The translations under genes and the position numbers were made by a program. A DNA stretch of 20,340 bases, from positions 3,486,323-3,506,662 of the forward strand of contig FN649755.1 of assembly GCA_000310025.1 (NCBI GenBank). Direction: 5' to 3'. Under the pieces are notes generated by a model, which did not search any database, had not been told where the DNA came from, and saw only the letters and a program-made list of their open reading frames with translations. How positions within the stretch are numbered: position 1 is the stretch's first letter; each line of letters begins with the position of its first letter. Below are positions 1 to 20,125 of this stretch, piece by piece. The stretch is from Ectocarpus siliculosus. Its lineage: Eukaryota; Sar; Phaeophyceae; Ectocarpales; Ectocarpaceae.

Positions 1-183
1 GGGAGAAGAGCAAGACGGAGCAGAATCATCGCCGTACAACCAGATTTTCATATGCCCGCCATCATCACCTTCACTTTCGCCTCTCCAGAACGATCACGGC
101 TTCCTCCCCCCCTAGATCTCCGTAGATCCGTATCTAGCGCTCAGTTTACCTAACAGGGGTGCTCATGTATTGCCTCAGTCGTC

Positions 184-345
184 AGTAAAGAATTTCCATT
201 GGTCAGTAGTCGGTCACACACACACTAATAGAGGCGGTGCTTGCTGGGGGGTTTTCAGCAATGAAAATGACGTTGGTAAAGCGGTCAGCCGGTTGCGTTA
301 GCGCGCTCGATGCACATAAATAAATAAATACACACACACAACAAA
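184..345. repeat. Two copies of the 'GGTCAGCC..CGGTCGATGC..CACACA' repeat family
   Basis: Positions 184-235 and 272-345 share the core with copies at 2493-2556, 2836-2895, 3129-3180 and 3225-3287. The run atttccattggtcag occurs at both ~192 and ~3221. The rest of 1-378 holds no exon I can support; if exon 10 is real it lies within intron 10. Confidence 0.6.
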
Positions 346-378
346 CGCAACCCTAACCTTGACTCAACATGCACTCAC

Positions 379-483
379 AATGCTGAATAAGCTGGACGCC
401 ACCGGCCCCAGTCTGAACCCCGCGTCTTCGCCGCTGGAAGCCGCCGCCCCGCTTTTCTTGCTCGATTGCTCCCGCGTGATTCT
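379..483 (-). CDS. EXO84: Exo84 exon 10 (probable)
   Basis: Acceptor caccgccgcag|AGAATC, donor AGCATT|GTGAGT, 35 codons, phase 0 at both ends and in phase with exon 9. It encodes a Ser/Lys/Ala-rich piece and then GFRLGPVASSLFSI. Without splicing it stops four codons later. Family similarity is weak, so support comes from splice sites and phase. Later exons would lie left of the window. Confidence 0.4.
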
Positions 484-3400
484 CTGCGGCGGTGTTCCGT
501 CGTCCAAGCGTTCCGTCGCAGTGTTCCGCCACACGATCCGCCGTAGCGTTCCGAAGCGTTCCGTCGTCGAAACGAACCGCCAAAGCGTTCCGTCGTTAGT
601 GTTCCATCATAGTGTCCCGTCGTAGCGTTCCGTCACAGCGTTCCGCCACACGTTCCGCCATAGCGTTCCGTCGATGAAGCGTTCCGTCGTCGAAGCGTTC
701 CGTCAAATCGTTCGTGTCAGAGTGGGTGGGCGGGGTCAGTTGGTAATACGAAGTACTGGCGTACCAAGTGTGTTTCTTATGCTCCCATTCGGGTTGCCAG
801 CGGGTAGCCGTGGGAGAAATAGACCAACGTTAGCAGTACGGTACTAGGTATACAGTTAGCAACGGCGACCCAGAAACACACCTTGTAAGAAACAGTAAGA
901 AACAAAGGCTCAGACTTTGGCAAATAAATGAGAAAAACGACTACGAGACACACCTCAGCCGTGGATCCTACACATAACTCTATATAATATGTCATGATCT
1001 ATGCTCGACGGTGGTGACGAACTAAGAAATTAAAGCCTCGACCCCAATGATGTTTCTCAAGCGCGAGTGCTAGCTGTACCGTACCGAATACCGTATACCG
1101 TAGGAGGCGGAGAGATTGCAGCCCCCCTAGACCGACTTTCAAAGATCGATTGCTCCAAAACCAAGCAGGTGCGGAAAGAGCCCGATACATTTACGAGACC
1201 ACAAATTGGTGCTCAAGTTAAATCAATGTTCTTAAGGCTCAATCTCTGGAATTCTTAAGCGCGCGGGCGCGTTCTGTACATGCTTTACCACGGGTCGGAG
1301 TTCCTACCGGGCAGACACGCTGTGAGCGATGATTAAAGGTGAAAAAAAAAAAAAAGGATACCGAAGAGCACGTTCCGATGGCCGAGAATTGAAGCCCCAC
1401 CTGAGGACCCATCGTGATCGCCCTGATCTGCCTTCCCATGAGCACCGCGTATTGGTCGATCTGCTGGTTGACCCACACCACCAGCCTGCAGAAGGGAGCC
1501 GTCCCGCAGTCCTTAACCCCTTGATACACCTGTCGGCATCAGCGGTAGAGTTAGCGTTAGCGTTAGCGTTAGCCTTAGCGTTACGTGAGGGTTAGCCTTC
1601 ACGTCGATGATGGCGTTAGGCTTCACGTTAGCGCAAGCAAAAGTGTCGGTGTTAGCCGAAGCAAAAGCCTCAGCGCTAGGCTTAGCGTTAGCGCTAGCCG
1701 GAGCGGGAGCGTTTGCCTTAATCTCGGCGCTAGTGCAAACTTAGCGATAGAGCTAGCGGTGCGCTAGGGGTAGCGCTAGAATTACCAGCGCTAGCGGCAT
1801 GCTACGGTTAGCGCTAGCGTTCTGCTAGGGATAGCCTCAACATCGTCGAAGGTGTTAGCGTCAGGCTTGGCGTTAGGCTTCGCGCTAGGCATGGCGTTGG
1901 GCTCAGCGTGAGGCTTAGCGCCAGGCTTAGCGTGAGGCTCAGCGCCAGGCTTAGCGTGAGGCTCAGCGCCAGGCTTAGCGTGAAGCTTAGCGTTAGGCCT
2001 GAGCGATGGCGGTTGGCACGGCAGTCAGCAGCGCTACATGTAGATACTTCGTGCCTCTATGCGACGTCATGTCTTCGCTTGCTCTCAAAGCCGAAATGGC
2101 GTTCCTTCGCCAAAAGGTAAGGCCGCTCGACTGCTCTCTAGCTGTGTCATTATCTGGTGGGCAAAACATCCTGTTTGAATGCTCTACCGTCACTGTGCTT
2201 CAGTGTGGTGCCATCTCTTCGCGTGCTCCTAAGCCGAAATGACGTTGCTGTTGGAAAGCTCTATCACGCTAGCTAGGTCGCTAGGCCGCTCCCCCGGCTT
2301 TTGCCTTCACCTGGTAGTAGGCGGTAGACTTTCCGGTCTTGATGGATCTTCGCTCGTGGATCCTCGCGGACTTGCAGAACAGTTTCAGGAACGCCGACAC
2401 CGCGTCCAACACCTTCCCGACAACAGACGGTGTGGGAGGGAAAAAAAACGTTGAAGGGGGACGAATAGACAGCTGACGGTTGACGATTGTCGTTGGTCAT
2501 TCGGCCAGCGCGTTCGATGCTAGTGAAACAAAAACTAAACACGCACACACCCTGTGGGCTCGCTAACGTGTGTTCGTGCTTGATATTACAGTAGATACGA
2601 GACTGGCGTATGTTCATTGGGCACCCTGTTTGGCTGACCTCCGCTCGTGAATCCTGGCAACACCGCGTCCAAAGCCTTTCCGACAACAAGCGGTGGTGTG
2701 GGGGGCGAAAATAATGTGCGACAGGGACACACACACAGGTATGAACACGACGACAGTAGGGTGTGGGGGCAAACTAGTGTTTAAAACGGACACAGGCGCA
2801 AGCACACCAACAGGCTGGCAACTGACGAGTTTTTTCATGGTCAGCCCGTTAGCGCGGTCGATACAATAAAAAATAACACACACAAACACACACACATACA
2901 CAAACACACAAACACACACACACACACACACACACAGAAACACTCACACACACACACATACACACACACACACACACACACGTGCGGATTTCTTCTGTTA
3001 TTGCTACGGCATCTGTCTTTATTGCGGAGAGTAGCGTAGACCGCCCCCATGACGCTCGGTGACAGGGTCCCGAATCGTGGCCTATAGAAGCAACATTGTG
3101 TTTTTATACCACGCTGAGACTGACGTCTTTTCATTGGTCAGCCTGTTAGCACGGTCGACGCTAATAAGAAAGACACACTCTGGGAGCTCGATAGCTCCGC
3201 AGTGTGTTCGTACTTAGCGCATTTCCATTGGTCAGCCAGCTATTAGCGCGGTCGATGCGACCAATTTAAGAAACACCCACACACGCCGGAACAACGCCTC
3301 GCCTCAACGCTAGCGAGTGCCACAGGAACATGCCACGCATACCGTAGGCTGCACAAGCCGTACTTGTCCGAAGAACGTTTCCGATGGGACCCTCACGTGA

Positions 3401-6400
3401 GAAATGGGGTCCGCGGTAACCTCTACAAGCCTACGCCTGACCATGGCGCGTTTCTCGTGCCTATCCTTCGTTTGTTATACCTATCCGAAGAACGTTTCTC
3501 ATACCTGGCACGATAAAGTTCTTTCAAGCAAATGTCCGAAGAACCTTTCTTATTCCTATCCCAACAAGGCTTCCTATACCAATCCGAACAACGTTCTTTT
3601 CTTATACCTGTCCGAAGAACGTTTCTCATACCTTGCCCGAGAAAGTTCGTTCAAAGCAAATGCCCGAAGAACCTTCTTATTCCTATCCGAACAGCGCTTC
3701 TTATATACCAATCCCAACAAAGTTATTTTCTTCTTGTACCTGTCCGAAGAACGTCTCCGATAGGACCCCCACGTAAGAGAGGGGGTCCGCGGTAACCTCC
3801 ACCAGCCTGAGGGAACGCCTGATCATGGCGCTTCTCTCCCCGACGAAGAAGATGGCCGCCTTCTCGCTCTCGCCCAGGGAGATGAGGAGGGCGAAGTTGC
3901 TCTTGTGCTCACGGAACCCCCACACCTGTGTTTTTGGTTTGACAATGTAACCGTAATGAGTGGTATGCCGAAAGCGTGGCTTTTTTCTGTTCAGGGATGC
4001 ATTGCTGGGTAGTGTTGGCGAATGTAACCGTAACTAATTCATGCACGCGGGGCAATTGCTTTTTCAGGATACTGTGCGCATGTATGAACGACTACCAGAG
4101 GCTGCAGCGCGGCAACCGCAACAGCAACAAGCACAACAAAAACATCGACCCTTCCCGAGACCTTCCGTCAGAACGACGTCAGCAGGAACATCATCAACAC
4201 CACCACCGCCCACAGCGCAGCAACAACAAAAACAGCACGACCCACGACACCGCAGCAACAACGGCACGACCGCAGCAGCAGCGGCGGCAACAACAGTGAC
4301 CCCAACAACAGAGCAACAGCAGCAAGCAGAGCCGGAACAACAACAACATAGACCCCTACCCGAAACCTTCGCTCTCACCGTCAGCGTGTTCGCCGCCGAA
4401 ATCTCGGCCAGCAGGCGCTCCGCCATCCCCGCAGCCATCGTCTCGACCTTCTGGAAGATTCTCTCCACCCCACGCCCCAAGTTGGTCGCGTTCTGAAGGT
4501 TCGCTGAGAAATCTCGGACCCTCCGGATCAAGGTGGCCGCTTCCTGGTGTTTTCGCTCCAGCAGCAGCTCCTCCAACTGCAAAGAACGAAAAACATCAGA
4601 GAGAGAGATAAGAAACGTGCAATGTCACTGCTTCCTCTGGTGCATTCCCTCCACCAACAGCTCTTCCAAACTGCCAAGAACGAAAACATCAGCGAGACTT
4701 AAGACACGTGCAATGTTCTGTTTGACCACGGGTTCGGGAGACCCTAGATGGAAGAAATGTTGTGCGTGTGAGCGCTGAAAAAACTACGGGAAAAAAAAGC
4801 AAAACCAGTCGCTGCTTCCTCTGGTGCTTTCGGCCAAGCAACAGCTCTTCCAACCGCAGGAAACATCATCATCAGAGAGAGAACAGAAACAAGCATGTCG
4901 CTGCTTCCTCTGGTGCTTTCGGCCAAGCAACAGCTCTTCCAACCGCAGGAAACATCATCATCAGAAAGAGAACAGAAACAAGCATGTCGCTGCTTCCTCT
5001 GGTGCTTTCGGCCAAGCAACAGCTCTTCCTACCGCAGGAAACATCGTCATCAGAAAGAGAACAGAAACAAGCATGTCGCTGCTTCCTCTGGTGCTTTCGG
5101 CCAAGCAACAGCTCTTCCAACCGCAGGAAACATCATCATCAGAAAGAGAACAGAAACAAGCATGTCGCTGCTTCCTCTTGTGCTTTCGCTCCAGTCGTAG
5201 CTCTTCCAACTACATCAAACTTCGTAATCGGAAAGAGAACAGAAAGGTGGAATGTTGTGTGTGGCCACGGATCGGAGACCTCCCATACGCAAAAAAATCT
5301 TCGTTTGTGAGCGCTGATTTGAAGTGATAAAACAAAACACAAATTTCGCTGCTTCCTCTGGTGCGTTAGGTCCCGCAACAGCTGTTCCAACTAGAAAAAA
5401 AAAAAAAGTCGTCAGCACAGAGAAAATAAGAAACGTGCGTTGCTTTCTGGTGCTTTAGCTTCGGCGTTATGCTAGCTTTTCCCTTTTCCAACTGCAGAAA
5501 ACGTGATCAGAAAGAGAATAATAAACGTTTAGTGTCCCTGCTTCTAGATGCTTTAGCTCGAGCAACGAACGGCTTCCAGCTCTTCCCAACTACAGAAACC
5601 ATTAGCAAACCGAGAACAGAAACATGCCCACGGTACACACATCAGGAGAGGGAGCAGAATCGTACCCGATTTCATATGCCAGGCACAGCACCAGAGTTCC
5701 GGGCCAAAGCTCTCGGGCAAGGAGGATTGCGAGGGTTAACATTACCGAGGTAGCACACTCTGCTGGGCACTAAAAAAAAAAGCGAAGAAAAACATGCGCG
5801 AGAGATTTTAACTTTTTTCTCACCTCTATCGGTGCTTGATCCAGCCACTCCGGCAGCTTGAGTCCTCTTGACGTCGAAGGTCCGTCTCCCTGAAACGGAC
5901 AGCCAACGACCAAGCCAACAGACGCAAAAAACACAACAGAAACCAAGACATCACCTGCAGAATGCCGACATGAGATGAGCCAACAGATGCAAAAAAAAAG
6001 ACGGCCATACTCCTACTTCAAGAACAAGAACCAAAGAACACCAATACACAACCTGTATCACAGGTGATGAAACAAATACATGTCACAGAATGAGACCAAC
6101 TGGCATAAAACCAAGACACAGCCTGCGGAAAGCCAAGTGCTTACTACACGCGCGGTATTCACGCTCACGTCTTCATCGTCCTCCTCTGGGCTGGCCGCCG
6201 CCGCCGCCGCCACCGCACGGGAGTTCGATCGTGCCGCCGGCGTTTTTTCCGCCGGTTTAACGGTTTCAACCAGGTGAACACCTCGAAACGACTGAAACGC
6301 CGCACAACAGCACGGCAAGTGGTGGGACGTATGTAGGCCGGTTGGTGTGCGTATGTGTACCGAAATACTGCATGAGATTTTCGTATCCATATTATTGTTT

Positions 6401-9400
6401 TTTGTGCTTCAGTTTGGTGTCTTGCAAGACGTCCCAGCCATTCGTTCATTGGTAAATTTCATGTCGACATGGAGCTGTGACATTCATGCATCTCAAGCGG
6501 CAACACGGCAGGGCTGCACCAGTTGTCGTCAACACAAGCGAAGTGTGAAAGCCAACGTTCGCATTCGATACTTGTACTCTTTCGCAAGATGAAGACAAAA
6601 AAAAGAAGAAAAACGTAGGTACCAAAATTCCGTGCCCAACTGAGGGCCAACGGTCCATGGCATTGGCACTGCGGTGTAAGAGCAGGAACACAGACGTAGC
6701 CTGATACAAGCATAGGCTTGCGTTTGAGGGGTTTGTCATCCGGTCGCCTTGCCCATTGACAAAAAAAAACTGCGCAAAAACCTGGGCTACTGCCGGCGAA
6801 CTATCTCGCACTTGTGTTCGCCACATCCGGCAGAGACGCTCAGCAACAGTGGCAGAGAGCAGCGGCAGCAACAGCAGCAGCTACCAGGGTATAGCAACAA
6901 CAACAGCAGCAATCACAACAACAGCTGTTAACAACGACAGATCAAGATCGACATGAAGACCTACGGCATAAACGACGATAACACAGCAAGAACAACAACA
7001 GCAGCAGACATTGCGGCAGATGGAACGACAACGCACCACGAACAATGTCAGGCGGGCAAAATTGACCGGCACGTACGGAATAATCAAGTCGTTCTACATA
7101 TTGAATAAGGCGGGTGCACTGAATAGGGCGGGTGAACCGGTCTGGCGCATACCCGCCGAATATTGGGCCTACGGCTGCACGCGCAAGGCTATGGCGGCAG
7201 ATCCCAGAAGGTGGTTCAGCGTCTGGAGGTCGATTTCCATGCTGCGGATCAGCAAACACGTATCGACAGCACAGCGACAACAAGACCAAAACCAGAAACA
7301 CGTGTCTGTTCTACATGCAATACCTGCAAGGTTACGGCGGTAGATCCCAGGAGGTCTTTCAGCGTCTGGAGGCCGGCTTCCATGCTGCGGATCTCCTCCG
7401 TGGCGTGCATGAACGCCTGGTAGTTGCGGACAACTTCGGCCCTCAAAGCCGACTCTGTTTACGAAAGCGGCGGCAACACAGGTGTACGATCGCGCCTTGC
7501 CTGTTTATCATTTTCGCAACAGCAGGGGTTTTCGCCACATGGCACCAGGCGTGCAGAAACGCCTGGTAGCTGCGGAAAAATTCGACCCTCAAAGCCGACT
7601 CGGTTTACGAAAGAGGCAAACAACAACAACAACCACCACAACACAAGTGTCGATGATCGCGCTTCGCCTGATGTTCTTTGCCGCAACACAGCAGGGATTC
7701 TCGCCAAGTGGCAAAAGGCGTGCAAAAGAGCCTTCCAGTTGCGGGTAATCTTACCCCTCAAAGCCGACTTGCTATTAGCCCTCTTTTCAAACTATAAATG
7801 GGCACGAGAGAGGCAGCGACAGCACAAAATGTCGATGATCTCGCTGTGCCTGGTACAGTGTTCTTCGTCACAACACGGCTGGGATTTCGGTACATCCATG
7901 GCACAATATCCCCCACAACAGCTGAATAGAAAACCGGTGCGGTAGCTGCGAGAAACCTTAGCTCTCAGGCTCTTACAGCCAGCCGGTTCTGTTTCATGAG
8001 TGATGCACACCGTAACAAAGAACATACCATACCATAAACAGTTATACACAAACGCAATGTTGGCGGTATTTGACCAAGGTGATGTTGCAGGTAAATAGTT
8101 AGTTCACTTGGGAGAGGGCGAGAAAAAGTGGCAAGTCCAAGTGCTTGGAGTACTAAATCCCCTTAGAGGCGCGCCGAGAAAGGTACACATAGAGCAGTCG
8201 GTAGTGGTGCCTGCTAAAGGCGGCGCAGAGCAAGGGATTTGACCAGCAGCTAGTGCGCACTCGGCACCGCTGTCCAGATCATGAGACAACTTTGGGTATT
8301 TTATCTGCTACACGTCAAGCGATTTCAACGCCCTATGTACGGGGCGACCGGCCGTATTTATTGTACGCATTCATGGGCGACTGTCCGTGTTTGTTGCGGC
8401 CTTTGGGTTTTCATGATCGAGGGCCGACAGCATAGCTCCTGTTTCTAGGCTCTACAGGCGTCTGCACACAGCAGTGCCAACATGACGGCATCGCTACTGC
8501 TGCTGGGTACGAGTGCGTCGGCCGCGAGCAGCAGTGTACCTACAGCACGTACAAAAAGGAAACACACTCACCTGTCTGGCGCTTGAGTCCTTCCAGCTTT
8601 TCCACCCTGGATATCAACAAGCATGATGGGGGCAAAAGGAGCAAGCAGAGGCGAGGGATTGATGCGAAAAGGGAGGTGCCAACTTTTCAGCTGTGCTTGT
8701 TGGTGCGAATCGTAGACTACGGACTGCCTACGCGAAGACAGCAGTGTAGGTTATATTTTCGAAAAATGAGCAAGCAAGGGAACCCTAACCCTAAACCCCA
8801 ACCTACACGATCCTATACTTTATCCGGTATGTTTGCTTGCGAAGAATAAACCTGCCTAAACTACTGATCTGAGAGCAAAGATTGGGTTGCACGTATATAA
8901 GCATGCAGAGCTGCCATGGCGCCGAAGAGTCAGCAACATGCACTCCTCACAACAAATAACGACTTGCTCGGTTCTGCTGCGTGGTATCGTGCACTTGTTT
9001 GTGCCGATTGACATCAGACCCTCTTGTGAAATCATAGCACGAGTGAGCATCACTTCACCGGTGCAGGCTCATAGACTACAGCAGTTGCACGCAGGCTCAA
9101 GAGCACCGCGATCTACGGGTATAACTGAAGAATGTGTCCCAACATTGATTTATCTTTCTCCATCCGCAATTTCCATTTCCAATCGAAAACTGCTACACTC
9201 CGCCAAACAGATGTGCCACACCTGTGCAATATTCACGGGAGCCATGCAGCAGTTGCACCGCAAGAACTGCCATGCCTTGCGTTCTATCCATACTACAGTA
9301 CAGTACATGTAAAAAGAATCTCTACCCCAGTAGCTACGTTGCACAGGAAGAGATTCTCCGTGCTGTGGGTGTATCCACCGTGCGCAATGTATCTCAGCGA

Positions 9401-9630
9401 CGACAGCTGGCCTATTGCTGCCACTGTGCAATGCCTACGTCTACACCTCCCCCGCACTCTTTCTCTCTCTCTCTCTCGCCACACCTGTGTGCCGCGTGAC
9501 TAGCCTCGCGTTGCTCGAAGAAGCCCTTGGCGTACTCTCCGGCATCGAACTGAGAGTCTTCGAAGAAGCTCACTAAGTCAGGGTCGGCTACCGACTTGAG
9601 CCACCGCTTGTCTTTTCGGCCAGACGACAT
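379..9630 (-). CDS. EXO84: Exo84/EXOC8-like exocyst subunit, split gene, 10 exons seen, 3' end probably beyond window
   Basis: Exons 9630-9485, 8606-8572, 7454-7324, 6291-6169, 5889-5824, 4576-4379, 3925-3740, 2412-2311, 1485-1401 and 483-379 all have GT donors and AG acceptors. Exons 1-8 join in one frame of 329 codons without a stop. Exo84 is a subunit of the exocyst, which tethers secretory vesicles to the plasma membrane. Family marks, from memory of plant and animal Exo84: FDAGEY near residue 31; the Vps51/Exo84 N-terminal coil with VVRNYQAFMHATEEIRSMEAGL near 69-90; an acidic Ala-rich linker (125-145); LPEWLDQAPIELEELLLERK at the start of the Exo84 C-terminal domain (about 157-176); ALLISLGESEKAAIFF (245-260); and, in exon 9, LVVWVNQQIDQYAVL. 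No PH domain, as in animal EXOC8, is visible. Usual length is 700-750 aa, so about half is present. Exons 8 and 9 do not join in phase. Identity is secure in the N-terminal half and less so after exon 7. Confidence 0.85.
494..712. repeat. Minisatellite, ~15-16-bp unit GCGTTCCGTCGTCGAA, abutting exon 10
   Basis: At least a dozen imperfect units (core GCGTTCCGTC or GCGTTCCGCC) fill the end of intron 9. The last unit runs straight into the exon 10 acceptor, so the splice site's upstream sequence is itself a repeat unit. The remainder of the intron (713-1400) is unstructured to my eye, apart from an A13 run near 1341. Confidence 0.75.
1401..1485 (-). CDS. EXO84: Exo84 exon 9 (frame does not match exon 8)
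   Basis: Acceptor ctcccttctgcag|G, donor CCTCAG|GTGGGG. With one leading base it encodes LVVWVNQQIDQYAVLMGRQI, matching the family pattern LVxWxxxQxxxFAxLVKR. That frame needs two bases from the exon before it, but exon 8 ends in phase 0. A missed microexon, another donor, or a sequence error would explain it. Confidence 0.55.
1549..2005. repeat. TTAGCG-type minisatellite in intron 8
   Basis: It starts as perfect GTTAGC hexamers (1551-1574), becomes degenerate, and ends (1860-2000) as an alternating 24-bp unit, GGCTTAGCGTGA then GGCTCAGCGCCA. The plus-strand translation is a (RLSARLSV)n string, a by-product of the period rather than a gene. Confidence 0.8.
2068..2254. repeat. Short duplication in intron 8, period ~144 bp
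   Basis: The segments 2068-2111 and 2212-2254 share catNtcttcgcNtgctc and aagccgaaatg, about 80 percent by eye. Nothing coding was seen here. Confidence 0.5.
2311..2412 (-). CDS. EXO84: Exo84 exon 8 (boundaries less certain)
   Basis: The likely acceptor is gtcgggaag|GTG behind a T/C-rich tract; the donor is TACCAG|GTGAAG. 34 codons in phase 0 give VLDAVSAFLKLFCKS.. and end GKSTAYYQ, which sits where plant Exo84 has a ..AYSS.. stretch before LVTW. An alternative acceptor lies inside at ctgttctgcaag. Reading through the donor hits a stop at 2283-2281. Confidence 0.5.
2628..2715 (-). repeat. Decayed copy of the exon 8 acceptor edge inside intron 7
   Basis: On the minus strand this repeats the real sequence around 2335-2440: the T/C tract, the ttgtcgg(g/a)aag acceptor, TTGGACGCGGTGT and the ATTCACGAGCG stretch. 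About 30 nt in the middle of the exon piece are missing. The distance from the real boundary is about 265 bp. Confidence 0.65.
2873..2983. repeat. (CA)n microsatellite
   Basis: About 110 bp of CA dinucleotides with occasional CAAA, CATA and CTCA interruptions, in intron 7. It forms the tail of one copy of the GGTCAGCC-type repeat. Confidence 0.9.
3363..3735 (-). repeat. Array of exon 7 donor-edge copies in intron 7
   Basis: The exon 7 end plus donor (ACGTTCTTCGGACAG|GTACAAG) recurs as ACGTTCTTCGGACAGGTATAAG at about 3602-3625 and as a variant at about 3478-3500, with a ~125-bp unit between. Position 3363-3448 is a longer copy, carrying ~75 nt of the exon tail (compare 3751-3830). Shorter half-units with the core TTCTTCGG/TTGTTCGG fill the gaps. 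Confidence 0.75.
3740..3925 (-). CDS. EXO84: Exo84 exon 7
   Basis: Acceptor aaaaacacag|GTGTGG, donor GGACAG|GTACAAG, 62 codons, phase 0. ALLISLGESEKAAIFFVGER followed by SAMIRRSLRLV and LSETFFGQ mirrors the Exo84 order: a Leu-rich LxRLG helix, then xLFLxxR, then a VFF segment. The last ~75 nt and the donor are repeated downstream in intron 7. Confidence 0.8.
4115..4350. repeat. CAA/CAG-rich tract with an exon 6 donor-edge copy, intron 6
   Basis: An irregular CAN triplet tract reads as poly-Gln or poly-Cys in shadow frames. Positions 4150-4190 resemble the exon 6 donor region at 4352-4390: both carry a CGTCAG..CCGA(G/A)ACCTTC arrangement about 200 bp apart, followed by a CAA-rich stretch. A further pair, aatgtaaccgtaa, lies at ~3945 and ~4020. 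Confidence 0.55.
4379..4576 (-). CDS. EXO84: Exo84 exon 6
   Basis: Acceptor cgttctttgcag|TTGGAG, donor CTGACG|GTGAGA, 66 codons, phase 0. LEELLLERKHQEAATLIRRV continues exon 5 as in Exo84 C-terminal domains; the rest is helical (RGVERIFQKVETMAAGMAERLLAEIS). The acceptor edge is the founder of the long 89-bp array in intron 5. Confidence 0.8.
4618..5625 (-). repeat. Array of nine exon 6 acceptor-edge copies filling intron 5
   Basis: Copies begin near 4625, 4809, 4898, 4987, 5076, 5165, 5346, 5438 and 5531; five starts (4809 to 5165) are exactly 89 bp apart. Each, on the minus strand, repeats the exon 6 acceptor region: GA-rich lead, TTTCCTGC-like tract, TTGGAAGAGCTGTTG, then CACCAGAGGAAGC. 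The genuine edge is at 4576. Two similar ~95-bp spacers (about 4711-4808 and 5250-5345) interrupt the array. Confidence 0.9.
5824..5889 (-). CDS. EXO84: Exo84 exon 5
   Basis: Acceptor tccgtttcag|GGAGAC, donor ATAGAG|GTGAGA, 22 codons, phase 0. It ends with LKLPEWLDQAPIE, the start of the Exo84 C-terminal domain (family form: xxWxxELPExLDxLLAER). Confidence 0.75.
5905..6160. repeat. Small duplications in intron 4
   Basis: agccaacaga(c/t)gcaaaaaa occurs near 5913 and 5977, and accaagaca followed by cctgc(a/g)gaa(t/a)gcc near 5941 and 6110. These are weak, local repeats in a 279-bp intron. Confidence 0.4.
6169..6291 (-). CDS. EXO84: Exo84 exon 4 (acidic linker)
   Basis: Acceptor gcgtttcag|TCG, donor GAAGAC|GTGAGC, phase 0 to phase 0, 41 codons. 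The product is a Lys/Pro then poly-Ala then PEEDDED linker, as expected for the disordered segment between the two conserved Exo84 regions. Low complexity means no direct family match. Confidence 0.65.
6860..7020. repeat. CAG/CAA triplet-rich tract in intron 3
   Basis: Irregular CAG, CAA and AAC triplets. The rest of intron 3 (6292-7323) shows no exon; it also holds the exon 3 edge copy listed separately. Confidence 0.6.
7186..7250 (-). repeat. Copy of the 3' part of exon 3 in intron 3
   Basis: About 65 bp match the exon 3 tail at 7327-7394 at roughly 85 percent by eye, including TCTGGAG, CCATGCTGCGGATC and GGATC(T/C)ACCGCC equivalents. The offset is 141 bp. The copy lies on the donor side, outside the exon. 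Confidence 0.8.
7324..7454 (-). CDS. EXO84: Exo84 exon 3 (core of N-terminal coiled coil)
   Basis: Acceptor gtaaacag|AGTCGG, donor TTGCAG|GTATTG. The 43 whole codons include EVVRNYQAFMHATEEIRSME, which matches the most conserved Exo84/Vps51-type segment (family form: YxxYxxFIxTSxEIxxLE). Both edges of this exon are copied into the adjoining introns. Confidence 0.85.
7480..7990 (-). repeat. Three tandem copies of the 5' part of exon 3 in intron 2
   Basis: Copies at about 7549-7616, 7717-7775 and 7934-7980 repeat the exon 3 start and acceptor (real: 7402-7466). Shared parts include ccctcaaagccgact, gtagNtgcgg and ggcgtgca. The intervening sequence is also repeated (gtgtcgatgatcgcg.., cagcagggNttNtcgcca), giving a unit of ~150-200 bp. 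Similarity falls with distance from the real exon. Confidence 0.8.
8333..8396. repeat. Short tandem pair in intron 2
   Basis: Two ~30-bp units share gggcgac(c/t)g(g/t)ccgt(a/g)TTT. The remainder of 7990-8571 holds no feature I can support. Confidence 0.4.
8572..8606 (-). CDS. EXO84: Exo84 exon 2 (35-nt microexon)
   Basis: Acceptor gatatccag|GG and donor GACAG|GTGAGT bound only 35 nt. It encodes VEKLEGLKRQT with split codons at both ends (Arg and Glu). It fills exactly the helix that precedes the ..VVRNYQAF motif in Exo84, so both phases and the family pattern support this tiny exon. Confidence 0.75.
8783..8799. repeat. Short interstitial telomere-like motif
   Basis: CCCTAACCCTAAACCCC, barely two to three units, in intron 1. 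It is too short to mean a former chromosome end. The rest of intron 1 (8607-9484) has no recognisable gene. Confidence 0.4.
9456..9480. repeat. (TC)n tract beside the exon 1 donor
   Basis: A run of CT dinucleotides immediately downstream, in transcript sense, of the exon 1 donor (GA-rich on the minus strand). Confidence 0.7.
9485..9630 (-). CDS. EXO84: Exo84 exon 1 (start codon)
   Basis: The ATG at 9630-9628 opens MSSGRKDKRW and reaches FDAGEYAKGFFEQRE, the point where Exo84 proteins begin their conserved FDAxxYV stretch. The donor is CACAG|GTGTGG; 146 nt leave phase 2 (AG), completed to Arg by exon 2. A longer in-frame start exists upstream (MHQRTLV...), but the conserved part begins after the chosen ATG. 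Confidence 0.78.
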
Positions 9631-10265
9631 GTCTCCTCTTGTTTTCACTGCTTGTCTATGGGTCAAGACGAGGACGAGTGTGCGTTGGTGCAACAGCTAG
9701 AGCAGTCGGTGGGGAGCACAACACAGGCGCCTGGCAAGCGGCTGAACAAGGGGCTGAGAGGCCCTTCGACTGAGATCTAGGAGGGGGGGGGGCACCCAAC
9801 TGGTTCTCCCGAGCGGGAACAGAAGACACCCCGCATTGGCGCACCGCGAGCGGCGAGCGACACAGCGACACCGATTCACCGTTTGTGACTCACTAGAGAC
9901 AGAGAGGGAGAGGGTAGGCGCGAATACAAAGCCTGCTGGCTCGGAACCCCATTCTGAATGCTGCACGAGCTTATTTATGTAGATGCGCCGTTACTCCTGT
10001 GTGGTGCCCGGTTAGGTTACCGAGATGCCCAAGTTGAGATGCTTCAATTTTCCCCGTCAAGCAAGGGATCTGAGCAGGGGGGCGGCTCAAAAAGCCGGCA
10101 CCGTTTTAGCATGTCAGGACAAAACAAGGCCCACCGCCGTTCTGTCGCTAATTGAACAGCATATCCTCACAGTAAATATTCAAGACCTTGCCGCGCAAGC
10201 GGGAAAAGGAAATCGAGGCAAGGGCTCTGGTTTGCTAATCAATTGTTTCGCACCGACATTTTCAG
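9631..10265. other. Intergenic region upstream of Exo84
   Basis: It should contain the Exo84 5' leader and promoter. I see no convincing TATA box or other site. A G11 run sits near 9781. Short open frames here lack family resemblance. Confidence 0.4.
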
Positions 10266-11110: not shown

Positions 11111-11138
11111 GAGTTGGTCTTTGTCGTCGGGGATGGGT

Positions 11139-11545
11139 GTGCTCATATTCGCGCATGCCGTAGTCGTTAGACCAATAGCCTCGCGTCCTCACACAGCCGG
11201 GAAGGAGCGCGCCGGGTTCACACCGAACCAGGCTCTCACATCACCAAGCGCGAAGCACCGTGAGATATTCGGCGAGTCGCATGGAGGGTGCGCTGCATCT
11301 TACTAAGGGTGTTCGGCGTCTTGTGCTTGCTTCGTTGCAACGCATGACAGCTGCGAATGACTTTGGGTTATTTTCTGGTACTTCCACTTACGGAGACAGT
11401 CATAGGCACTGTGTCATTGCCTCGAGGGGGATTGACCATTTCAACACAACGTGGTGCGATCATCCCCTTTGCACGGAGTGAGTGTTCCCGATGCCGCACA
11501 TCATTATCTACACACTCGACCACCATTATGGCTACCGCAACAAAC
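11139..11545 (+). repeat. Dispersed repeat R1, copy 1
   Basis: About 407 bp align end to end with 19704-20125 in the same orientation, at roughly 75-80 percent by eye. Shared anchors are gcatgccgtagtcgtta, ttcggcgagtcgcat, agggtgttcggc, catgacagctgcg and cggagtgag. No open frame is conserved. It is likely a non-coding mobile element or part of one. Confidence 0.8.
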
Positions 11546-11579: not shown

Positions 11580-12034
11580 CAGCTGGCAGCAAAAATCGCC
11601 ACCGGGACAGATGTATCTTGGCGTCCGCCAATCAGCTGTCTCCAGTTCACTTGGCACCTACTTTGCGTCTTGTCTATGTTCCGGTAATTTTTGAAAAACA
11701 CGCCGCTTTTCTCTGGGCGCCGCATTCGAACAAACCAGTTCATAGACCAACACACATCAGCTGGGAGCCTGCGAACTGCAAAAGGTGCATACCACACGCA
11801 CGCCCACAGCAGGATAGAACTCGCAGAGACCACACCGGTATCTCTGTGTATCAAGTCTCGCAACGCCAACCCACACTCGGCGTCGATAACGAGCGAGCAG
11901 CAGCAGCACGAAGAAGAAAAATATTGAAACACAGCGAGGAGGGAGACCATTTACCCACAACCAAGGATCCAAGCTATTCAATATCGTCTGCACGCCCGGT
12001 CCTCTCGCCAGACCACTTCAAGTAACGTGATGAT
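11580..12034 (+). repeat. Repeat R2 copy A (+)
   Basis: It starts near ccaccgggacagat, contains ggcgtccgccaatcagctg and cacgcccacagcaggataga, and ends ccacttcaagtaa then tgatga. The same order is in copy C (12504-12988); copy B is inverted between them. A near-perfect palindrome, TTGGCG-TC-CGCCAA, lies at 11618-11631. Confidence 0.8.
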
Positions 12035-12503: not shown

Positions 12504-12988
12504 TTGGCTGCGAAAAAAAAACACCGGGACAGATTTTTAACATGGCGTCCGCCAATCAGCTGTCTCCAAATAGTTTGGCGCCTACTTGGCGTCTCGTCTA
12601 TTTTCGATATTTTTTCGGAATTACGCCGCATCTTTCTGCACACCGCATTATTGAAATCGACCAGTTCAGAGACCGACCCACATGTCAGGCGGGAGCCTGG
12701 GCACTGCAACTGGCGCATACCCCACGCCCACAGCAGGATAGAACGAGCAGAGACCACTCTGGCCTCTGTGTGCACGAAGTTTCGTAACGTCAATCCACAC
12801 TGAGTATCGATAACGAGCACCCAGAAAAGCACTCAGAAGAGCTACAGCGAGGAGAGAAAGATCGCGCACAGACGCACACTCGATTACTTGTGTCGGGCTA
12901 CTGCAGGACACCACTGCCAGGGATCTGCGCATGCTCTATCGCGTGCACGCCCGTCCTGTCGCCAGGCCACTTCAAGTAATCTGATGAC
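12504..12988 (+). repeat. Repeat R2 copy C (+)
   Basis: It has the same order of anchors as copy A: acaccgggacagat, tggcgtccgccaatcagctg, cccacagcaggataga, gcacgcccgtcct, ccacttcaagtaa. There is a ~50-bp extra segment before the end. Positions 12989-13542 hold no gene I can support. Confidence 0.8.
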
Positions 12989-17672: not shown

Positions 17673-18417
17673 TCAACGCGCTGTGCCGTTGTTCCTCCTC
17701 GGAAGCCTCTCGTCTCGTAAGCGTTGTTGGTCCCTTCGCGAGCCCGGAGCTCCCCACTCCCTCCGCAGGAAATTGCGGCGGAGGTAGTCGACCATCCTGG
17801 CCCTCTCAGAATCAAGGGGGCCGGCACCCTGCGAGAGAGCGCGTCCAGTGCCGTTCCTCGTCGGGGCATTGTCGACTCCGTGGTCGGCAGGCGATTCGCC
17901 TTCGCGCATGAAGATGAAGTTGTGGAGGATGACACACGCGTTGACGATCGTTGGGCAGTGGTCGAGGTGGCAGTCCAAACCATTGAGAAGAGCACGGAAC
18001 TTCTTCTTCAGGCGTCCCACAGCATGCCCTACGCGGGAGTGCACGCTCGAATGCTTGTAGTTGAAAAATCGTTCCGCCCTGTTGTTGGGTTTCCCGATCG
18101 GCGTGCGCATCCATGGAGACTCAGCGAATGCGGAGTCCCCCAGGATGCACGCGCCGTTGGCGAACAGCCGTCTGCTGTTGACTGGCTGGGCCTGGTCCTC
18201 CTGTGCCATCTCGTAGAATGCGGTGTCCGTCAAGACCCCGCTGTCAGCGCACGCGCCTGGTGCTTCGGAGCAAAACCAGCGGAACATGCCCTCGTTGTCC
18301 ACGATTGCGAGTAGCGAAATGGAGTAGAAGTGCTTGTAGTTGTAGTACGAGGTCTGGAGCGAGTCTGGTGGCGCCAGGATCTTGATGTGACTCCCGCAGA
18401 TGGCTCCGATCACACCC
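17673..18417 (-). CDS. Transposase exon 2 (catalytic domain)
   Basis: The acceptor is TTTTCCAAACGTAG|G. It carries the whole DDE_Tnp_4-like domain and an Arg-rich tail (RRNFLRREWGAPGSRRDQQR). First catalytic position Cys, second Asp, third Gly. Confidence 0.85.
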
Positions 18418-19497
18418 CTACGTTTGGAAAACAGCGCAGGATTGTGGGACGAGGTGTGGGATGTACGAGCTTAGCAGGAGCGTGAGATAAACGCGGGTGT
18501 CCATTGATCTAAACCACCTGTTCATCTGTTGCATTCGATCAAGGTCTACAGCGGAGTATAGACGTGGTATTCGGCATGGTCCTTGTTGCGTCTTAGACAA
18601 GCTAGCCCGCGGATTTGTTTCCCAGTTACATGGCTCGTGGGTACATAAAGAGATTGGGATTATTCTCCATTGAGTGAGACGCAGGCATTCCGGGCGTACT
18701 CACCACCGACATCTAACTATCGCACAGGTGATCGACACTACGCGGGTCGGTAGAAGATTGTAGCGTGTGCGCACTTGGTAGTCGGCATGATTTGTTGAAA
18801 TTTCATGTGTGTCGTCGGATGGTGTAGGTCGCAGAGCTCAGGATGGGAGTACCCACAGGTTGACAATGTTGTACACTTATGCATGGAGCTTGGGCGAACT
18901 CCACGAGCCCGAAGTGTCCGTCCGTAAGGAGTGGTCGTTCGTGCATGCTGGAGTCGGCGATAAACATGTCCGTCTCCGTCTACCAGTGCTGAAGTCAAAC
19001 TTGGTCGACCTTGGGACTATTGAAGTCTCGACAATGGGCGCGGCCAAATCGAGAAAAATACGAACACAAACCCACCTGAGATGGTTCTCGAGCTCCCATG
19101 CTGCAGACATCTCCCGCTGCTCTCCCGGGCTAGGCCACCAGACGCATCCATCGCGAAGATACTTGTCGACCCTTCTTGCCACCTCCAGGGTCATCCGAGA
19201 TACCGTCCCCTCGGACAGGTCAAACTGAAGGGCGGTCTGCCTGACCGTGGAGTCTCCACCCAGCCGCCACATGAACACGGCTACACGCTCGCACGGGTCG
19301 AACGGCGGTCCTCTGCGACCCTTCCTGCACATGCCAGTGGTGCCGTAGAGCTTCTTCACAAGATCGGCGAAGGTCGTCTTCCTGCAGATGCGACGCAGGC
19401 GTGGGGCTAGGGGGTAGTAGCTTGAGTATGCTATTGTAGCACTCTGAATTCGGGTCATGTCAAGGTAGTCGAGAATCTGCATCCATGTGTGTTCCAT
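17673..19497 (-). CDS. PIF/Harbinger-type DDE transposase, two exons, catalytic triad altered
   Basis: Exons 19497-19076 and 18417-17673 join (CTCAG|GTGGGT ... CGTAG|GGGTGT, phase 2) into 388 codons plus stop, the usual length for a Harbinger transposase. Residues ~83-110 form a helix-turn-helix (VRQTALQFDLSEGTVSRM), then WPS, then the DDE_Tnp_4-type domain: GVIGAICGSHIKI (142-154), YYNYKHFYSISLLAIVDNEG, PGACADSGVL, ILGDSAF, FNYKHSSVHSRVGHAVGRLK, ACVILHNF. In the family the first motif is G(A/V)IDGTHI and the last is VVERAFGRLK. Here the Asp is Cys148 (TGC) and the Glu is Gly271 (GGG); Asp199 remains. It is therefore probably unable to cut DNA although frame and splicing are intact: a recently dead copy or a domesticated protein. 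Terminal inverted repeats were not found by eye. Confidence 0.88.
18418..19075 (-). other. Transposase intron, 658 nt
   Basis: Canonical GT..AG. Removing it restores ..ENHL-R-GVIGAICGSHI, the expected Harbinger order. No further open frame inside resembles a known protein. Confidence 0.75.
19076..19497 (-). CDS. Transposase exon 1 (DNA-binding part)
   Basis: It starts at MEHTWMQILDYLD and contains the helix-turn-helix and the WWPSPGEQREMSAAWELENH stretch that precedes the catalytic domain in Harbinger proteins. 422 nt, ending phase 2 at a GTGGGT donor. Confidence 0.8.
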
Positions 19498-19703
19498 GTG
19501 CGTTCTTCAGGAAGCTGTCATGAATTGGAGTTGCCGCCGCAGCTTAACTTGATGCCAACGAGCCAGGCGCAATTCAGGAAGTCAACAACAAATCAACTCT
19601 CCGCACTACGAACAAGGTCTGTTGCGACCGCCAAAATTGCCGGGACTCGAATGCCGCGAGGATCTCACCCTAGGAGTCGGGTCTAAGCGCTATGGCATCC
19701 GGG

Positions 19704-20125
19704 TGGGGGAGGGTGTAACTCATAGTCGAGCATGCCGTAGTCGTTAAACCATTGTCCTCGCATCCCTACAAAGCCGGGGCGGAGCACGCCGGGTTCTCAC
19801 CGGACCAAAAACAAATATTACGAAGCGCGAAGCGCCGTGAGGTATTCGGCGAGTCGCATCAAGGGTGCGCTGCTTCCTGCTGAGGGTGTTCGGCATCCTG
19901 TGCTTACTTCCTTGCCTACTCATGACAGCTGCGTGTGACTTGATTTTTTTTCTGGCGTGCTTTCATTTCCAGAGACAGTTGTAAGCACTGTGTAACTGCC
20001 TACCAAGTAGGGTGCTTGACCCATTTAACACTACGAGGTGCGTTTATCCCCCTCGTGCGGAGTGAGGGTTCTCCACCCCGCACAACACAATGTATCGACC
20101 ACCGTTCATGGTAGCCGCAAAAAAA
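19704..20125 (+). repeat. Dispersed repeat R1, copy 2
   Basis: Aligns over its full length with 11139-11545. It begins about 205 bp beyond the transposase start codon. A ~30-bp stretch near 19806 and the T-rich part near 19945 differ from copy 1. Confidence 0.8.

Follow-up and report, generated by a model that had tools for sequence, protein, structure and literature searches.

Exon borders repeated into the introns of an Ectocarpus siliculosus EXO84 gene, another instance of the mirages named in amphioxus

We analysed a 20,340-nucleotide stretch of the brown alga Ectocarpus siliculosus (assembly GCA_000310025.1, contig FN649755.1, positions 3,486,323 to 3,506,662 of the forward strand; GC content 53%), hereafter the window, whose own numbering is used below unless another contig or stretch is named. 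A minus-strand EXO84 gene in it has several of its exon-intron borders repeated, together with some adjoining exon sequence, in the neighboring introns. This is another instance of 'mirages', a name given in the amphioxus Adh3 gene to exon-intron borders duplicated in tandem in the manner of minisatellites (PMC3087553; PMC3902484). The repeats are very probably ordinary local tandem duplications that chanced to span the borders: in the sample examined, duplications cross exon borders roughly as frequently as they cross positions in the adjacent introns.

An earlier sequence-only reading of the locus had called the gene Exo84-like, which is borne out by Pfam matches to the Exo84_C (8e-12) and VPS51_Exo84_N (7e-10) domains in a protein assembled by eye from the list of open reading frames (ORFs). 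These matches cover exons 1-3 and then exon 5 to the early part of exon 8, and the exon edges are those predicted by splice motifs. Exon 1 runs from the ATG over 9485-9630 (VPS51_Exo84_N match, donor motif, and a protein match at 9472-9630), and is followed by exon 2 (8572-8606; splice motifs, inside the VPS51_Exo84_N match), exon 3 (7324-7454; Pfam match, splice motifs and border alignments), exon 4 (6145-6281; ORF list and motifs, outside the Pfam matches, with frame and exact edges unverified), exon 5 (5824-5889; Pfam match and splice motifs), exons 6 (4379-4576) and 7 (3740-3925), both with Exo84_C matches and motifs, and exon 8 (2311-2412; motifs), into which the Exo84_C match extends.

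Copies of the borders were sought by self-blastn and by border-versus-intron alignments, using 14 probes with 300 Markov-resampled sequences each. Six borders had been proposed to be echoed in the adjoining intron; an outward copy was recovered at five, and at four of these (the acceptors of exons 3, 6 and 8 and the donor of exon 7) it crosses the border by at least 8 nt on each side. None of the 300 resamples reached the alignment scores at the five affected borders, which argues against chance similarity. At the exon 3 acceptor (7402-7886), border-spanning repeats recur at offsets of about 146-181 bp, and self-blastn aligns 7402-7600 with 7548-7769 (E 2e-29); two of the three copies claimed here are clear, with 78% and 62% identity to the border segment, and a third, reaching to about 8010, is weak (56%, not separately tested). 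The exon 3 donor side (7183-7393; self-blastn and border alignment) does carry the single copy expected of it, an exon segment at 7326-7393 being repeated at 7183-7250 (87%, E 6e-17), but the alignment ends 2 nt inside the exon, whose edge is at 7324, and thus stops short of the border itself. Several copies were anticipated at the exon 7 donor (3360-3838), and we found a 103-bp copy (3736-3838 versus 3360-3456, 83%, E 6e-24) along with a repeat pair, 3467-3625 and 3594-3757 (E 1e-45), that extends 18 nt across the border and is in part made of 24-bp units. The one copy at the exon 8 acceptor is likewise present (2397-2714; border 2397-2447 versus copy 2660-2714, 80%, E 2e-5, by self-blastn and border alignment). 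At the exon 6 donor, where a weak copy had been suspected, the sole match (4340-4370 versus 4136-4165; 0/300 resamples) is wholly intronic and lies 9 nt from the exon edge, and that claim falls. The remaining eight of the 14 probes gave no border-crossing match; short intronic, non-crossing matches at the exon 7 acceptor, exon 5 acceptor and exon 4 donor were unequaled in 300 resamples each. Every copy found lies outside its exon, as had been stated, and the duplication offsets in the gene range from about 24 to 380 bp.

The largest of these structures is the array at the exon 6 acceptor (4533-5627), in which the true border is accompanied by nine diverged copies of a unit of about 89 bp, all nine having been noted before; it occupies most of its 1248-bp intron, and EXO84 thus illustrates well how an intron can consist mostly of its own repeated edge. 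Identity of the copies to the border goes from 80.5% for the nearest to 63.5% for the farthest (Spearman -0.86, p 0.003, n=9, four of them near-identical and hence not independent), such that the decay with distance described in the sequence-only reading holds as a trend though not strictly. That reading suggested that a recurrent process, starting at splice borders and copying them outward, makes introns longer. R-loops or stalled RNA-processing complexes might provide the starting points, and the drop of identity with distance would suit such a process. The internal structure of the array speaks against it. Four near-identical central units, c2-c5 (4808-5162), with GG in place of the acceptor AG, are 97-100% alike mutually and 67-71% identical to the true border, with c3 and c5 the same in the alignment, while the true border and c1 group together (support 0.92). 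As the units that are most alike are also central, the array looks to have grown in its middle and not through successive rounds of copying at the border. The copies were also considered as alternative exons, and this was rejected: each reproduces roughly the first 44 nt of the exon and no more of it, and the unit length of 89 bp is not divisible by three.

Contig C4 carries a partial, decayed second copy of EXO84 (2650696-2652590), with part of exon 1 at 2652412-2652590 and, at 2650721-2650942, an exon 6 of 54% amino acid identity that is interrupted by one stop; exons 2-5, 7 and 8 were not matched there at E up to 10, exon 2 being short and the frame of exon 4 unverified. Judged by the search matches, this copy shares the exon 6 border and array units, suggesting that the array probably predates the duplication of EXO84 to C4. 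The shared array also bears on whether the repeats could be an assembly error, or, as considered above, a chance similarity, which we regard as hardly credible. The identity of c3 and c5 means that the copy number at that point could be misassembled; however, five of the nine exon 6 copies are 20-40% diverged both from the border and from one another, and a second locus has the same array.

Mobile elements bearing splice sites, akin to introners, might also insert beside exons and mimic border copies. In keeping with this, intron 3 contains a dispersed repeat (7050-7180, about 130 bp) beside the exon 3 donor copy, and intron 7 sequence at about 2797-2939 is matched elsewhere. Against it, what the border copies resemble is the very exon they adjoin, and no dispersed occurrences of the exon 6 and exon 3 acceptor units turned up, dispersal at exons 7 and 8 not having been effectively probed. 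A 184-bp query with the exon 6 border matched only the EXO84 locus and the C4 copy (two candidates), and with a 3.65-kb query the exon 3 acceptor and exon 6 arrays were unmatched elsewhere among the 40 of 51 candidates scored. Introner-like dispersal was rejected on these results: the near-identical copies at many genes that mark such elements were not found for the exon 6 border or the exon 3 acceptor units, which are not a dispersed element, and we consider a mobile origin of the border copies very improbable. The repeat at 7050-7180 accounts for 33 of the 43 matches listed, on many contigs, and is probably a short mobile element in its own right. The matches of the sequence at about 2797-2939 likewise lie on other contigs, and a small part of the EXO84 duplication coverage given below may be dispersed repeats.

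As a control for comparing borders with intron interiors, we took nine CCT/Cpn60 genes from the same assembly, which comprises 189 Mb in 492 contigs. The profile PF00118 gave 59 exon matches in ten genes, and the exons were completed with a profile built from the CCT/Cpn60 exons themselves. From the 71 exon-exon gaps in the ten genes, 57 introns were counted (56 scoring above 6 bits and one, at 3.3 bits, added by hand), and 14 gaps were dropped for lacking a consistent splice pair or for a weak score; gene R10 contributed none. Local duplications were defined as self-blastn matches with E <1e-3 and an offset <1.5 kb. The control stretches contain N letters (R1 1748, R4 3035, R5 3433, R6 671, R8 100 and R9 100), and in the counts the exon 5 donor of EXO84 was placed one base off, at a site with no duplication.

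By this measure, 38% of the bases of the EXO84 introns are locally duplicated as against 4.7% in the CCT introns, a roughly eight-fold richer set, and some duplication is present in 4/6 EXO84 introns versus 11/57 in the controls. The claim that the EXO84 introns are lengthened also agrees with their median of 1080 bp, compared with 562 bp in the control genes. The proportion of borders crossed follows the interior in both sets. In EXO84 it is 4/12 (33%; 95% interval 10-65%) whether 4, 8 or 12 nt are required on each side, with interior junctions crossed at 38%, 37% and 36%, respectively; for CCT it is 5/114 (4.4%; 95% interval 1.4-9.9%), 3/114 and 2/114, with interior junctions at 4.7%, 4.3% and 3.9%. 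Nor do duplicated bases gather within 100 nt of borders: 362 were observed in EXO84 against 341 +/- 118 expected (P 0.44), and 439 in CCT against 460 +/- 149 (P 0.55), from 2000 rotations each. Thus tandem duplication does span splice borders, as the sequence-only reading held, at four borders of EXO84, whereas its further claim of nucleation there is not supported, the comparison of repeats at borders and at other positions that it had proposed giving no border excess in EXO84 and the nine CCT genes.

Border copies occur in the control genes as well, in four events at five borders, two of which reach just 4-5 nt past the border. Gene R7 has a 96% identical, and for that reason likely recent, copy of an exon start, and in gene R8 the upstream intron contains a 68% copy of a 325-bp segment that comprises a whole exon (9907-9999, minus-strand coordinates) and both its borders, a fading exon duplication. 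Border copies seem to be a general, low-level trait of this genome. The presence of such copies in CCT genes, and of crossing copies at four of the 12 borders of a single gene, would be expected under nucleation at borders; the lack of enrichment relative to the intron interior or within 100 nt of borders, the internal growth of the exon 6 array, and an outward direction that requires no mechanism of its own weigh on the other side, and we judge nucleation to be improbable.

Under the preferred explanation of chance border-spanning duplication, the outward position of the copies would need no directional mechanism, as it would follow from the requirement that the protein stay intact. When an acceptor is duplicated, the exon would remain intact only if the last acceptor is used, and the upstream copies would become intron; donors would behave as the mirror image, and a duplication inside the exon would alter the protein. 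In a toy model with random duplications of 40-300 bp, a 600-bp intron and 200-bp exons, 41% of the tolerated duplications cross a border. Selection would then maintain the exon half of the true border and leave the extra copies free to drift, so that an echo should stay recognizable for longer. This is shown at exon 6, where identity to the border is 71-82% in the exon-derived halves of the nine copies and 49-73% in the intron-derived halves, with the exon half closer in eight of nine. Since such preservation should favor detection at borders, the missing enrichment is all the more telling. Arrays may later expand internally by slippage or unequal exchange.

Alternatively, the extra borders might serve as decoy sites by which the splicing of EXO84 is tuned, and be kept by selection for that reason. 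Scored with matrices trained on the CCT introns, the acceptor copy at 4670 reaches 9.0 bits compared to 9.2 for the real site, and the donor copies at 3505 and 3632 reach 8.8 and 7.9 bits compared to 8.2. These values would allow a decoy role, but the AG is gone in four of the nine exon 6 copies, the length of their unit is not a multiple of three, read-through past the exon 7 donor reaches a stop at 3701 in the ORF list, and it is the intron-derived half of the copies that drifts most. A role as decoys is accordingly predicted to be quite improbable.

Several points weigh against chance duplication as a sufficient account. The excess of crossed borders in EXO84 over CCT (4/12 versus 5/114) is significant (Fisher p 0.005) and points to something specific to the EXO84 locus, whose introns form a duplication-rich stretch. 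The control is small and drawn from one conserved housekeeping family, so that an approximately two-fold enrichment at borders is compatible with the counts. Duplications near CCT exon ends whose borders were not called (R1 10168-10248, R2 4519-4550, R5 3183-3239, R9 2831-2895 and R10 8894-9059) might raise the border count. Finally, for the query with exons 7 and 8, 40 of 1320 candidates were scored and the matches were dominated by a microsatellite, so that dispersal of those units was not effectively probed. Elsewhere, duplication covers 0 to 3.7% of five 10-kb stretches, 3.4% of L001-L008, and 18% of a half-masked neighbor, X2; the stretch before the window, X1, was excluded from the count, being almost all N. 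The 10 kb directly before the window (3476323-3486322 of the contig) have 2.9% G/C letters and are presumably nearly all N. A broader proposal, that border-spanning duplication occurs so often in this lineage that it ranks among the main sources of long introns, hot genes like EXO84 having at least a third of their borders affected and an array surviving gene duplication, appears unlikely.

The sequence-only reading knew of no named system of this kind, which is superseded by the amphioxus mirages (PMC3087553). Besides Adh3, these are reported in globin (BflGb6, BflGb9), troponin C and PGBD5 genes (PMC3087553; PMC3902484), with units of 10-160 bp, similar in size to those of EXO84. As described there, units span an acceptor or donor plus some exon, the copies are intronic, and some keep AG or GT. 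EXO84 shows the same: its units carry a border with part of the exon at four of 12 borders (at least 8 nt each side), including the nine exon 6 copies; both 5' and 3' borders are involved (acceptors of exons 3, 6 and 8, donor of exon 7); and, in the exon 6 array only, there is concerted evolution within the array that excludes the boundary units, comparable to the homogenized central units reported for BflGb6. Unlike the mirages described, several borders of one gene are affected, and most EXO84 copies show greater divergence than those of BflGb6 (81-100%), the EXO84 case being read from one assembly alone. Intron gain by tandem genomic duplication, in which a segment with splice-like sequence is duplicated and the region between the copies becomes intron (review PMC3443670), shares the tandem duplication of a splice-like segment, but the EXO84 duplications extend existing introns. 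Ordinary intronic tandem repeats also form local arrays in long introns; PMC12477816 gives tandem repeats as 3.35% of the Ectocarpus genome and a median autosomal intron of 524 bp, close to the control introns with their 4.7% duplication and 562-bp median and unlike the 38% of the EXO84 introns, although the methods differ. No report of border-spanning repeats in a brown alga was found in the literature by titles and the starts of abstracts, with subscription papers mostly not covered.

The EXO84 locus extends a little-known lancelet phenomenon to another eukaryote, and the rate of crossing at borders versus the interior provides a simple quantitative test between a special border mechanism and neutral duplication seen through selection. 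Beyond exon 8, the first part of the window (1-2000) contains short-unit minisatellites (6-, 12- and 13-bp) that are part of the repeat-rich stretch of EXO84. Outside the EXO84 exons, a direct repeat pair at 11600-11917 and 12522-12840 (76%) lies 922 bp apart. The window further encodes a DDE_Tnp_4 transposase (6e-28) on the minus strand at 17676-18470, which we take to be of the Harbinger type, and which is flanked by a second direct repeat pair, 11126-11544 and 19703-20124 (77%).

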